DNA of 64,000 nucleotides from Candidatus Ruthturnera sp. Tsphm01. GTDB taxonomy: Bacteria; Pseudomonadota; Gammaproteobacteria; PS1; Pseudothioglobaceae. The position numbers and the translations under genes were made by a program. The stretch lies in assembly GCA_030142985.1 (NCBI GenBank), contig CP125320.1, positions 501,639-565,638 on the forward strand, given 5' to 3'. The notes beneath the pieces are model-generated. The model ran no database searches, had not been told where the DNA came from, and saw nothing but the letters and a program-made list of their open reading frames with translations. Below are positions 15,042 through 24,516 of the stretch, piece by piece; within the stretch, counting starts at the first letter, position 1; each line of letters begins with the position of its first letter.

Positions 15042-15626
15042 TTATTCTAACAATTCAAAAGCATTAATCACACTTTCAGCCACATCAACAATACGCTTGT
15101 TTTTATTCATTGCCATTTTACGTAACGATTGATAAGCCTCATCTTCATTAATATTTTTATGTTGTATTAACAAGCCTTTGGCTCTTTCAACTGCTTTGCG
15201 CTCTGAAAGCTTATTTCTAGTCGCATCTAACTCATCTTTAAGTGCTTGAAATTCTCTAAATCTAGCAATCGCCACATCAATAATGGGTTGCACCCTGTTC
15301 TCTTCAAGCCCATCAACAATATAAGCATGCACGCTAGATTTAATAGCAGAACTTGTCATTCTAGGGCTTGATTCCTCGGTAAACATAACAATAGGTTTAG
15401 GTTTAGTTTTATTAATATCTGTTAAATTTGCAAATACTTGCTCATCGGGAATATCTGCATTAACAATCACCACATCTGCATGTGTCATTTCATTGCTGTC
15501 TTGTAAGTTTGAGCTGTCACTCATACGGCAAATCACTTCGTGACCCTTGTCTTGCAAAGCTCTACGTAACATGGCTGAACGCCCTGTGTTTTTATCAACT
15601 AAGATAATTTTTAAAGCTGTATTCAC
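15042..15626 (-). CDS. ANTAR-domain response regulator (NasT/AmiR type)
   Basis: The first 115 or so residues form a receiver-like domain (KIILVDKNTGRSAMLRRALQ, then VVIVNADIPDE with the acceptor region at Asp58). A coiled coil follows (FREFQALKDELDATRNKLSE) and then an RNA-binding ANTAR domain, ERAKGLLIQHKNINEDEAYQ and SLRKMAMNKNKRIVDVAE. Such proteins bind paired hairpins in nascent mRNA and prevent termination, often of nitrogen genes. Its start overlaps the CBS gene stop by four bases. Its position beside the amt genes suggests a nitrogen role, which is inference. Confidence 0.9.
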   Translation of the reverse strand: MNTALKIILVDKNTGRSAMLRRALQDKGHEVICRMSDSSNLQDSNEMTHADVVIVNADIPDEQVFANLTDINKTKPKPIVMFTEESSPRMTSSAIKSSVHAYIVDGLEENRVQPIIDVAIARFREFQALKDELDATRNKLSERKAVERAKGLLIQHKNINEDEAYQSLRKMAMNKNKRIVDVAESVINAFELLE

Positions 15627-16063
15627 TTAATGCGTGATTTAAAAATAGCCCTATGCACGTCACCAATACTAACAATGCCGACTAACTTATTATTGTGAGT
15701 CACTGGAATCCTTCTGAAATTTTTAAGCCACATAGTAGATGCTGCTTTAAGGCATGGCATACTTAAATCAATACTAGAAACATCTTTAGTCATCAATTCG
15801 CCCACTTTAACATTCATTGTGTCTTTGTAATTATGCTCCATATTTTCAAAATCAAAATGCGTATTGCTCATCACTTCATCTAGTTTTGGAAACATATGTT
15901 GTAGAATATCTTTTTCAGAGATAATGCCGACTAAATTATTATCATCATCCACCACTGGAGCGCCACTAATACGATCCATCACCATGATAATAGCAACGTC
16001 TTTGACTAGTTGATTAGGGGTGATTGTTTTCACATTAGTTGACATAATATCTTGAACTTGCAT
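15623..16063 (-). CDS. CBS-domain protein
   Basis: A 146-residue protein made of two CBS domains (VQDIMSTNVKTITPNQLVKD to ISEKDILQ, about 2-57, and VGELMTKDVSSIDLSMPCLK to SIGDVHRAI, about 86-141). CBS pairs bind adenine nucleotides and act as energy sensors. It is translationally coupled to the ANTAR regulator downstream, so it may set the activity of that regulator, though no direct evidence is in the sequence. Confidence 0.9.
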   Translation of the reverse strand: MQVQDIMSTNVKTITPNQLVKDVAIIMVMDRISGAPVVDDDNNLVGIISEKDILQHMFPKLDEVMSNTHFDFENMEHNYKDTMNVKVGELMTKDVSSIDLSMPCLKAASTMWLKNFRRIPVTHNNKLVGIVSIGDVHRAIFKSRIK

Positions 16064-16121
16064 GTTTATACCTCAGTATCTTTTATTAAAACTTTCATTC
16101 TACCTGATTTCCATTAAATTC

Positions 16122-16155
16122 AAAAAAAACATAGGGCAAAAATACCTTATGTTTT
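16122..16155 (-). terminator. Intrinsic terminator after the glnK-amtB-porin block
   Basis: On the minus strand AAAACATAAGG and CCCTATGTTTT pair across an 8-base loop and run into eight T. It lies about 100 bases after the end of the porin-like pseudogene and before the CBS gene. Confidence 0.75.
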
Positions 16156-16257
16156 ATTGATAAAAGCTTCTGTATTGTTAAATACAATTAACAAAGCAAA
16201 TAACAACTTTTTTATATAAAGCCAAACTTGGCTAGTAACGCAGAATCCTTTAATATA

Positions 16258-16905
16258 TTAAAAACTTTTGCCAATACTAAAAACAACGTAGTCCTCGCTA
16301 TTACCATTTGTTGGTTCTAATTTATTCCAAGCAATGGCATAATCAAGTTCGCCTATAGATTTAGCAAGTGTTATAGAATAGTATTTATTACTATCTTTAT
16401 AATCACCATATACCAATGTGGTATCTATTTCTGACAACTCTAAATTATAGGATATTTCAAGATTGTCATTTGCGCCATCGATACCCTTGTATTGTGTCAA
16501 TCCAAAACCTTTGTGAGATGCACTCACATAAACTTCCTCAAAATTGGCAGTAGTTGCATTCAGATATTGATAACTGATATAACCAACCTCATAATCAGCC
16601 CCATTATAACTCATGGCATATAAATCCATTTCAATAGAAGCATCTTTTCCGTTAGTATTTTTAAAACTAACATTTGAGCCCCATACCCTAAGTTTAAATC
16701 CATTGTCAAAATCATAATCCAACCCACCTTAAATAGTTACTTCTTTATCATGATTATTTGCACTAACCCTCTCCAAACGTAGTCATTAGCAATAGTAATA
16801 TTGCCACTAATTGATGATTGCACCTCTTCAACTAAAGATACAGAACTCATTGTTAAAGTTAAGCCAAAATTGTTAATAATATATTTTTTTTGTCTTATTT
16901 TTCAT
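16258..16905 (-). pseudogene. TorF/Gcw_chp-type outer-membrane protein gene, frameshifted
   Basis: The intact part (16258-16722) reads YDFDNGFKLRVWGSNVSF and other beta-strand patterns of the TIGR02001/TorF porin-like family and ends in an aromatic residue (IGKSF). The 5' part is broken. From the ATG at 16905 the frame stops after 10 codons. A second frame gives ANDYVWRGLVQ, the typical start of the mature protein, then a one-base shift, and the last frame has a TAA at about 16734 where Gln is expected. Homologues often sit next to glnK-amtB, as here. Confidence 0.8.
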
Positions 16906-16940
16906 GTTTTTCCTTGCTTTAATTTTAAAAATTTTGTTTA

Positions 16941-16965
16941 AAGTAAGCGTCAAAAAGCGCTTACT
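16941..16965. terminator. Hairpin between amtB and the porin pseudogene
   Basis: AAGTAAGCG and CGCTTACTT form a 9-bp stem 22 bases after the amtB stop. The T-run is on the plus-strand side, so on the minus strand it is more likely an mRNA 3' stabiliser or a partial terminator than a strong stop. Confidence 0.5.
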
Positions 16966-16986
16966 TTTTTGTATTACTTACTACCT

Positions 16987-18198
16987 TTATTTGGTAAATT
17001 CAGGATAAGCCTCCAAACCACATTCCGAAATATCAACACCTGAGAATTCCTCCTCTTCAGAAACTCGAATACCCATTGTCATCTTAAGTACTAACCATAA
17101 CACCATTGAAGTGCCAAATACCCAAATAAAAATTGTTCCTGCACCTGCCAACTGTCCGCTAAATGACACGCCACTATTAGTTAATGGCACTGCTAACAAA
17201 CCCCATAAACCGACCACACCATGGACAGAAATTGCACCCACTGGATCATCAATCTTAAACACTCTATCTAAAACATTAATCGAAAATACCACCAAAATAC
17301 CACCAACAGCACCAATCAATGTCGCTTCCAAAGCACTTGGTGTATCCGGACCTGCGGTAATTGCCACCAATCCAGCCAATGCGCCATTAAGTGCCATGGT
17401 TAAATCTGCCTTGCCCCATAATAGTTTAACCAATAATAATGCTGCAATTACACCGCCTGCTGCTGCTGCGTTGGTGTTTAAAAATACCATTGCTACTGCA
17501 TTAGCACTCTCCTTACTTGCCATTGCTAGCACCGAGCCACCATTAAATCCAAACCAACCCATCCACAAAATAAACGTCCCTAAAGTTGCCATTGGCATAT
17601 TAGCACCAGGAATTGCTCTAGAATTGCCTTCGGCGTCATATTTACCCTTACGAGCGCCTAACGCTAATACACCAGCCAAAGCTGCTGCTGCGCCTGCCAT
17701 ATGTACAATACCCGAACCTGCAAAATCAGAAAAACCTAAATCAGCCAATTTAAACAAACCAAAAACTGCATCGCCATTCCAAGTCCAAGCACCTTCCATT
17801 GGATAAATTACTGCTGTGAATACAACAGCAAAAGAAAAAAAAGCAAATAACTTCATTCTTTCTGCTACTGCGCCTGAAACAATTGACATCGCTGTTGCAA
17901 CAAATACGACTTGAAAATAAAAATCTGCCGCATTTGAATATTTATCACCCGTACCACTAATACCATCTAGTAGAATACCACCACCATACATAATATCATA
18001 ACCAACCACCATATACATCGTACAAGCAATTGCAAATAGACCAATATTTTTAGTCAGAATTTCAGCCGTATTTTTACTACGAACCAATCCTGCTTCTAAC
18101 ATCGAAAAACCAGCAGCCATCCACATAACCAACGCACCCATTACTAAAAAGTAAAAAGTATCTAGGGCGAATTGTATTTCAATTAATGTATTTTCCAT
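16987..18198 (-). CDS. amtB: Ammonium transporter (first copy)
   Basis: Inner-membrane ammonia channel, 403 residues, 11 predicted membrane segments. The pore histidines are in GIVHMAGAAAALAG and ISVHGVVGLWG, and the phrase WMGWFGFNGGS is present. There is no separate signal peptide, unlike the second copy. It follows glnK by 9 bases. The C-terminal tail (RVSEEEEFSGVDISECGLEA) is the part P-II proteins dock on. Confidence 0.95.
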   Translation of the reverse strand: MENTLIEIQFALDTFYFLVMGALVMWMAAGFSMLEAGLVRSKNTAEILTKNIGLFAIACTMYMVVGYDIMYGGGILLDGISGTGDKYSNAADFYFQVVFVATAMSIVSGAVAERMKLFAFFSFAVVFTAVIYPMEGAWTWNGDAVFGLFKLADLGFSDFAGSGIVHMAGAAAALAGVLALGARKGKYDAEGNSRAIPGANMPMATLGTFILWMGWFGFNGGSVLAMASKESANAVAMVFLNTNAAAAGGVIAALLLVKLLWGKADLTMALNGALAGLVAITAGPDTPSALEATLIGAVGGILVVFSINVLDRVFKIDDPVGAISVHGVVGLWGLLAVPLTNSGVSFSGQLAGAGTIFIWVFGTSMVLWLVLKMTMGIRVSEEEEFSGVDISECGLEAYPEFTK

Positions 18199-18207
18199 AT
18201 TGCCTCC

Positions 18208-18555
<348 letters not shown>

Positions 18556-18578: not shown

Positions 18579-18630
18579 AAAAAAAAGCCAATTGTTATGT
18601 TTGTAAAAAAATACAAACTCAACGACTGGC
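18579..18630 (-). terminator. Strong hairpin with T8 directly before glnK
   Basis: On the minus strand GCCA...TGGC (18630 to 18587) encloses a GTTG/CAAT segment and a perfect GTTTGTA/TACAAAC stem with a six-base loop, followed by eight T (18586-18579). It begins two bases after the stop of the small ORF and ends 24 bases before the glnK start. It may end the ligA transcript, control glnK by readthrough, or both. A weak TTGAGT-17-CATAAC promoter overlaps it. Confidence 0.7.
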
Positions 18631-18631
18631 C

Positions 18632-18874
18632 TCAATGCCTTTTATTTTCAATTTCATCATGAAACTGACAAAAAAAAAGACACTTACCTAGAATTTCTTT
18701 TTCAAAAAATCTAAATAAACGTCTATGTTCTTTTACTAAACACCCACCTTTAGGCGTTAACTGGTAATCAGTATAACCATAAAAACAAGACAATGTTGTT
18801 GTTTTTAACAAAAAAATCGTATCATTAATGCTATTTATTGTATGGTTAAATTTTAGATAAATAATCAGCTTCAA
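18632..18874 (-). CDS. Small cysteine-containing protein, function unknown
   Basis: Open frame of up to 80 codons after ligA, overlapping its end by 29 bases. The last 50 residues look protein-like (CFYGYTDYQLTPKGGCLVKE, HRRLFRFFEKEILGKCLFFC), with five Cys. The only possible starts are TTG codons (18874, 18811 or 18793), none with a good ribosome binding site. I do not recognise the family. A T8 hairpin follows directly after the stop, so it would be the last gene of the ligA transcript. Confidence 0.4.
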   Translation of the reverse strand: MKLIIYLKFNHTINSINDTIFLLKTTTLSCFYGYTDYQLTPKGGCLVKEHRRLFRFFEKEILGKCLFFCQFHDEIENKRH

Positions 18875-24177: not shown

Positions 24178-24516
24178 TTAAAGCGCGTCTTTATCGGTTT
24201 CGCCTGTACGAATACGAACCACTTTGTCTAAATTGGTCACAAAAATTTTACCATCACCCACCTTGCCAGAATTAGCCACATTACTAATCGCTTCAATCAC
24301 TTCATCAAGTCTTGAAGCCTCAATCGCAATTTCTAATTTAATTTTAGGTAAAAAGTCAACTTGATACTCCGCTCCTCGATACAACTCAGTGTGCCCTTTT
24401 TGACGACCAAACCCTTTTACCTCAGTCACTGTTACGCCAGATACACCAACCTCGGATAACGCCTCTCTAACATCGTCTAATTTATGCGGTCTTAAAATCG
24501 CTGTTACAAACTTCAT
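24178..24516 (-). CDS. glnK: P-II nitrogen regulator GlnK (second copy)
   Basis: A 112-residue P-II protein, close to the copy at 18.2 kb but shorter by three residues in the B-loop region (NVANSGKVGDGKIFV). The uridylylation tyrosine is in YRGAEYQVDFLPK. AGGAGA precedes the start. It forms a two-gene operon with the adjacent amtB and has a good sigma70-type promoter, without the leader hairpin of the first copy. Confidence 0.95.
   Translation of the reverse strand: MKFVTAILRPHKLDDVREALSEVGVSGVTVTEVKGFGRQKGHTELYRGAEYQVDFLPKIKLEIAIEASRLDEVIEAISNVANSGKVGDGKIFVTNLDKVVRIRTGETDKDAL

Follow-up and report, generated by a model that had tools for sequence, protein, structure and literature searches.

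A candidate NasS-less antiterminator and its predicted double attenuator before the ammonium and nitrite genes of Pseudothioglobaceae

In low-oxygen seas, bacteria of the SUP05/Thioglobus group and their symbiotic relatives in mussels and clams play an important part in the cycling of sulfur and nitrogen. Comparative sequence analysis indicates that, in these marine sulfur-oxidisers and symbionts, an ANTAR protein operating without NasS appears to open two stop signals that precede ammonium and nitrite genes. We analysed a 64-kb stretch of DNA (the window) from a genome consisting of a single contig of 1,523,273 bases, with a listed completeness of 100%, and propose that its ANTAR protein is very probably an orphan RNA-binding antiterminator of the NasT type, controlling glnK-amtB and nirB at tandem attenuators. 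The nearest named records to the window are Ca. Ruthia, Ruthturnera and Vesicomyosocius, and the hosts of this genus are presumably vesicomyids. Comparisons were made across a panel of 58 genomes, of which 37 belong to the family of the window (Pseudothioglobaceae; hereafter, the family) and 21 do not, and across 54 loci, comprising the window and 53 loci from a related-locus search.

Organization of the locus and of the glnK leader

The genes considered here all lie on the minus strand:

15042-15626, minus strand: NasT-like ANTAR protein with a receiver and an RNA-binding ANTAR domain (194 aa; ORF and Pfam)
15623-16063, minus strand: protein with two CBS repeats, optional companion of the ANTAR protein (146 aa; ORF and Pfam)
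16258-16860, minus strand: TorF-like porin pseudogene, outside the switch (TIGR02001, E 3.5e-9, under its cut-off; in-frame stops)
16987-18198, minus strand: ammonium transporter gene amtB, in second place in the putative controlled unit (TIGR03644, E 3.1e-186)
18208-18555, minus strand: glnK, P-II protein, first gene after the double attenuator (profile match)
about 24199-24516 (G000:C1:525837-526154), minus strand: second P-II gene, probably glnB, near the glnK locus (profile match)

The ANTAR protein, the only one found in the genome by a genome-wide profile search, matches PF03861 (E 6.4e-19; 67.9 bits versus a cut-off of 27.3) and Response_reg (E 3.1e-7), in agreement with the initial annotation, which had assigned it to the NasT type. 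Because the genome yielded no match to PF13379, we call the protein NasT-like and do not speak of a NasS-NasT system. Its neighbour contains two CBS stretches (PF00571, E 6.5e-28), and the overlap of four bases claimed for the two genes is real, with bases 15623-15626 (GTGA) providing both the GTG start and the TGA stop. The glnK and amtB block is likewise as the annotation described it, but the claim that a terminator alone separates this block from the CBS-ANTAR pair was wrong, since 923 bp (16064-16986), including the TorF-like porin remnant, lie between the CBS gene and amtB. Longer matches to this pseudogene occupy the same position in mussel-symbiont loci. Two P-II proteins of the genome match strongly, and a weak relative is also encoded.

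The glnK leader (18579-18775, minus strand) consists of two ANTAR attenuators in series, P1a-P2a-T1-P1b-P2b-T2, situated behind a -10 box; P1 and P2 follow what we take to be the usual names of these hairpins, and loops are given in brackets:

18770-18775, minus strand: -10 box TATACT, 5' of both terminators
18739-18758, minus strand: P1a hairpin, AACGCCU[AAAGGU]GGGUGUU (leader reading)
18717-18730, minus strand: P2a hairpin, GAAC[AUAGAC]GUUU, 3' arm common to T1 (leader reading and covariation)
18670-18723, minus strand: T1, first terminator (stem 18679-18723, U-tract 18670-18678)
18648-18668, minus strand: P1b hairpin, with a five-base loop in this genome
18628-18639, minus strand: P2b hairpin, GGC[AUUGAG]GCC, 3' arm common to T2 (scan and covariation)
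18579-18630, minus strand: T2, second terminator (stem 18587-18630, U-tract 18579-18586)

Folding of this leader is stronger than that of shuffled sequences (z -5.3), none of 200 shuffles being as good. When the entire window was scanned for A1/G4 hexaloop hairpins whose 3' arm begins a terminator, the one match was located in the glnK leader (18636, minus strand), as compared with a mean of 0.45 matches in 20 shuffles; since the scan was written after the motif had been seen in the aligned leaders, it serves as a check and not as a blind find. An Rfam search of the window reported only a tRNA, and in the glnK leader every family stayed below its gathering score. All 38 glnK leaders contain a -10-like box 5' of P1a, with the exact sequence TATAAT in 36 of them (TATACT in the window and TACAAT in L062), against a background of TATAAT in 1.8% of 45-nt blocks. 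Therefore, both terminators are probably inside the glnK transcript.

The series of two units was read in each of these 38 leaders. Among the 38 first units, 98.0% of the cells are paired in P2a, 75.5% and 91.1% in the P1a helices, and 97.5% in T1, which shows two-sided changes at 6 of 14 pairs; pairing and covariation of T1 exceeded those of 500 out of 500 shuffles, in a control that, as with those for T2, P2a and P2b, leaves the kinship among leaders in the statistics. The 35 second units (L033, L040 and L045 were left out, having no P2b by pattern) are paired in 100% of the P2b cells and in 86.9% of those of T2, reaching 99.5% in the inner helix of T2, with two-sided changes at 11 of 17 pairs. 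Covariation thus supports both the terminator and the antiterminator states, which exclude each other, with P2 and the terminator overlapping at both T1 and T2.

The loops are conserved to different degrees. G4 of the P2a loop occurs in 38/38 leaders, a figure that attests to the presence of a site of this type in every leader, because the P2a pattern requires G4, and A1 occurs in 36/38. Both A1 and G4 are found in the P2b loop of 35/38 leaders, the other three lacking a good P2b. P1a forms a strict hexaloop in 27/38 leaders, and the loop of P1b has six bases in 16, five bases in 16 and neither length in six. Unit A of the window contains two A1/G4 hexaloop hairpins. The named Vesicomyosocius loci L033 and L040, where AmtB is gone or decayed, have a glnK P2b without G4 and keep the pairing of P2a and T1 through changes on both sides.

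Because the established mechanism of ANTAR proteins, as set out in parts of PMC3369931 and PMC8934654, involves the P1-P2 hairpins, we propose the same action here. RNA polymerase would start at the -10 box 5' of glnK and then meet T1 and T2, each of them preceded by a P1-P2 pair in which the 3' arm of P2 also contributes to the 5' side of the terminator stem. Binding of the ANTAR protein would stabilise P1 and P2, preventing the formation of T1 and T2 and allowing transcription of glnK-amtB; with the protein unbound, transcription would halt at one or the other terminator. Control of nirB would be exerted by this protein too, through a second tandem leader located elsewhere in the genome. The suggestion in the initial annotation that the glnK leader is an RNA target of the ANTAR protein is thus probably correct, the element being located there and conserved.

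The ANTAR protein and its predicted regulon

Nine of the 11 RNA-contact residues of EutV (structure 6wsh, which we take to be EutV from its title and paper) are identical in the ANTAR protein of the window, and the equivalents of EutV R142, K143 and K149 are kept in 56/56 family rows. Conversely, the phospho-acceptor place of the receiver is occupied by Asn in all 55 proteins of the family clade that have a residue at that position, versus Asp in 27 of 29 proteins outside the family clade, a set in which L003 and L176 represent one genome's single place. The annotation had also raised the possibility of a separate NasS-like gene elsewhere; we looked for it with PF13379 (NMT1_2) and found no match in the genome of the window or in any of the 12 genomes of its genus. 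NasS-type matches were weak in two of the 37 family genomes and strong in 6/6 ANTAR-bearing genomes from outside the family. The neighbours of ANTAR in the loci of the proteins outside the family clade include, by eye, NasS- or NrtA-like proteins and in no case the CBS protein. NIT domains were detected in three of the 37 family genomes, and not in that of the window. With NasS absent and the phosphorylatable Asp lost, both usual input routes, NasS and phosphorylation, are unlikely. G075, whose genome of 1.1 Mb is assigned to another family, encodes an ANTAR protein (L150) 86% identical to that of the window, with different neighbours, one of which reads like ureG (the neighbour labels UreG, hppA and NarK are presumptive and were assigned by eye).

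Other potential targets were searched for with R1, an RNA model built from the 35 second units, in which P2a is not modelled. The genome of the window contains two strong R1 sites, one at glnK (E 4.6e-13) and the other at C1:243886-243994 (E 1.5e-11), which is the leader of nirB, coding for a nitrite reductase of 791 aa, and carries both units. Two further, weak matches were rejected as targets, C1:715389 (E 0.10), whose surrounding genes have no evident link to nitrogen, and C1:920434 (E 7.3). R1 sites occur in 33 of the 37 family genomes and in none of the 21 others, six of which possess other ANTAR proteins; ANTAR proteins are present in 39/58 genomes, including 33 of the 37 from the family. 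Both the protein and the RNA were found in 31 family genomes, the protein alone in two, the RNA alone in two and neither in two, and all but one of the four discordant genomes are less than 90% complete.

The R1 sites retrieved at E<=0.1, in a survey covering all but a few weaker or glnK-placed matches, precede glnK or nirB except in L129, L131 and L136. The site in L136 is weak and lies 5' of an MFS transporter gene; L129 and L131, from one genus, show a double ANTAR leader, with a possible 11-codon leader ORF, before a gene that by eye we take to be serB. Among 21 distinct nirB leaders (23 rows, including three of the window's own locus, all selected with R1 apart from L036), the strict pattern identified P2a in 18, P2b in 19 and both in 16. 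In the four genomes of around 1.0 Mb from the genus of the window, R1 matches strongly at nirB and weakly at glnK, and glnK of G012 retains the RNA though the ANTAR gene is some 0.5 Mb distant.

Elsewhere in this genome, behind nirB and an MFS transporter gene and outside the window, a transposase-like gene adjoins that of a 494-aa molybdopterin oxidoreductase, apparently truncated (L089, 6766-9342). NtrC was rejected as a regulator of glnK in the genus, because strong Sigma54_activat matches occur in just four of the 37 family genomes (G000, G007, G031 and G035), the remaining 33 having none; the sigma-54 activator of the window's genome (L177, 2060-4971) comes after a membrane kinase of the HAMP type, which contains a CxxCH motif and is not NtrB-like by eye.

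The CBS gene and possible inputs to the switch

The initial annotation had proposed a CBS protein that senses adenylates as partner of the ANTAR protein, with conservation of the pair as its own test. Five of the 54 loci are cut by contig ends; the 49 informative ones, with enough upstream sequence, comprise 15 with an intact CBS gene beside ANTAR, two with a broken copy (L042 and L052) and 32 with none. The 4-bp overlap occurs in six loci (the window, L031-L034 and L040), all in the window's genus; outside this genus, intact CBS genes end 16-34 nt ahead of ANTAR, and loci without the overlap often contain a TATAAT-like box immediately 5' of the ANTAR start. CBS homologues (E<=1e-10) were found in 25/58 genomes, 22 of them among the 37 of the family, and are absent from 12 of the 33 ANTAR-bearing family genomes, 10 of which retain the RNA element. 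Pair conservation therefore stands within the genus, where both genes are present in 12/12 genomes, even those of 1.0 Mb, but fails overall, and a general partnership is not supported because the pair is not conserved. A fixed partnership was likewise rejected, given the 32/49 loci without CBS and the broken copies beside an intact ANTAR gene. Thus, CBS appears to accompany the ANTAR gene as an option.

The same CBS gene occurs directly upstream of sat (ATP sulfurylase) in four loci from sister genera (L139, L140, L142 and L144), where sat was identified with Pfam in L139 and by eye in the rest. Three of them continue with what we take by eye to be aprM, aprB and aprA, and L142 stops within the first apr gene. 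The ANTAR-side copy of G016 is broken and its sat-side copy is intact, G027 and G032 contain two CBS copies each, and G045 and G050, from outside the family, contain a CBS homologue and no ANTAR gene. Only 4 of 20 inner branches are well supported in a CBS tree of 24 rows, where ANTAR-side and sat-side copies are intermixed and two further genomes (L141 and L143) were tagged as sat by expectation, their neighbours not being listed; this poor resolution gives no direction of movement between sat and ANTAR. No paper was retrieved from the literature on CBS domains in connection with ATP sulfurylase, aprA and sulfur oxidation, and on CBS domains together with ANTAR and NasT a single paper, about sigma-54, came up. 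Both S-x-x-D motifs, which we read as adenosine motifs, are kept in 24/24 CBS sequences, and adenylates are perhaps bound by this protein, whose gene is found at sat too. That second home is suggestive, but no demonstration, of a coupling of nitrogen to the energy obtained from sulfur.

We weighed the proposed antiterminator against a simpler explanation of the leader and considered what might inform it. It is highly improbable that the two hairpins are ordinary terminators unrelated to ANTAR: T1 follows ligA and could end its transcript, but the two-terminator layout also precedes nirB and serB, the -10 box lies 5' of T1 in 38/38 leaders, the loop G4 and the P2 pairing are conserved, and R1 sites are lacking in the 21 genomes outside the family. 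T1 was thus rejected as a mere ligA terminator on account of the nirB layout and of the -10 box. As to the signal received by the antiterminator, the CBS protein might be its true sensor, binding adenylates and, as a stand-in for NasS, holding or releasing it through contact. The gene overlap, the persistence of both genes throughout the window's genus, the lack of NasS or NIT proteins there and the intact S-x-x-D motifs agree with this role, which we nevertheless consider unlikely in view of the 32/49 loci without an adjacent CBS gene, the 12 ANTAR-bearing family genomes that dispense with it, 10 of them still with the RNA, its presence beside sat in sister genera, the homologues without ANTAR in G045 and G050, and the broken copies in L042 and L052. 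Still less likely is a version particular to the clam-symbiont genus, in which the CBS protein, whose gene is shared with the sat locus, replaces NasS, reads the level of adenylate or APS set by sulfur oxidation and gates the double attenuator, so that the uptake of ammonium through glnK-amtB and the reduction of nitrite through nirB would track the energy yield of sulfide. Tuning of the ANTAR protein by CBS may occur, limited to genomes with coupled genes.

Alternatively, an ANTAR protein freed of NasS could be active by default, as such proteins presumably are in the absence of NasS, with its amount as the signal; this amount would be set by read-through from glnK-amtB or by a promoter of the ANTAR gene itself. 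We regard this as possible, though not probable: it fits the absence of NasS from 12/12 genus genomes, with two weak matches among 37 family genomes, the loss of the phospho-Asp in 55/55 proteins and the position of the gene, which in many loci lacking CBS follows amtB at 82-300 nt, but the long-kept double attenuator suggests that regulation matters, and in G012 the ANTAR gene is far from glnK-amtB. It is rather doubtful that nitrogen status is conveyed to the ANTAR protein by GlnK or, in some genera, by a protein of 312 aa (311-322 aa) that is presumably sensor-like. In favour of GlnK, its gene is the first target and is kept in 1.0-Mb genomes with AmtB lost or decayed; however, we know of no contact between a P-II protein and an ANTAR protein, and a second P-II is present. 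In several genera, ligA and glnK flank the gene of the 312-aa protein, which is preceded by an ANTAR-type hairpin (R1 or scan match) in L035 (3149-4084) and L081 (3103-4071), and has homologues ahead of ANTAR in L003, L175 and L176, with YkuI_C, below its cut-off, as its sole Pfam match; it is, however, absent from the window's genus.

Relation to known systems

An orphan antiterminator acting on a double RNA attenuator, without NasS, thus remains our preferred reading and offers a testable account of ammonium and nitrite control in the SUP05/Thioglobus group. The predicted switch persists in symbiont genomes of 1.0 Mb without AmtB. Full-text searches of the accessible literature returned no paper containing both ANTAR and SUP05, or both ANTAR and Thioglobus, and we did not meet the conserved double unit, the family-wide orphan NasT-like protein with an Asn receiver or the two homes of the CBS gene in the literature searched.

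Elements of the same kind are known at genes of the same kind, because ANTAR RNAs 5' of genes for P-II proteins, ammonium transporters and nitrite reductases were already listed in 2012 (PMC3369931), in a paper whose main text, tables aside, does not name Ruthia or Vesicomyosocius. The leaders described here differ in that the double unit is conserved in one family and common to nirB. The occurrence of several units before one gene is not new in itself, since one Desulfotomaculum has 13 ANTAR elements in six transcription units, according to the same part of PMC3369931. Free-standing CBS-pair proteins such as MJ1225 (3kh5) also have two CBS repeats and S-x-x-D motifs, whereas the gene studied here is placed beside ANTAR or directly upstream of sat.

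A close comparison is with the NasS-NasT systems of Paracoccus and Bradyrhizobium, as described in sections of PMC3795266 and PMC6759348, which share with ours a receiver-plus-ANTAR protein and whose targets include the leaders of genes for nitrite reductase and P-II proteins, here predicted; glnK2 falls in a Bradyrhizobium nasT mutant (PMC6759348, in part). Unlike in those systems, NasS is absent here, the receiver Asp is replaced by Asn and two attenuators are arranged in series. Likewise, the leaders resemble the dual-hexaloop RNA of EutV, as presented in portions of PMC8934654 and PMC3369931, in their P1-P2 hairpins with A1 and G4 and in the overlap of P2 with the terminator, and the proteins agree at 9/11 of the RNA-contact residues (PMC8934654, in part). 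They depart from the EutV system, as described in those portions, in having no phospho-acceptor, a P1b loop that is often of five bases and two units per gene.
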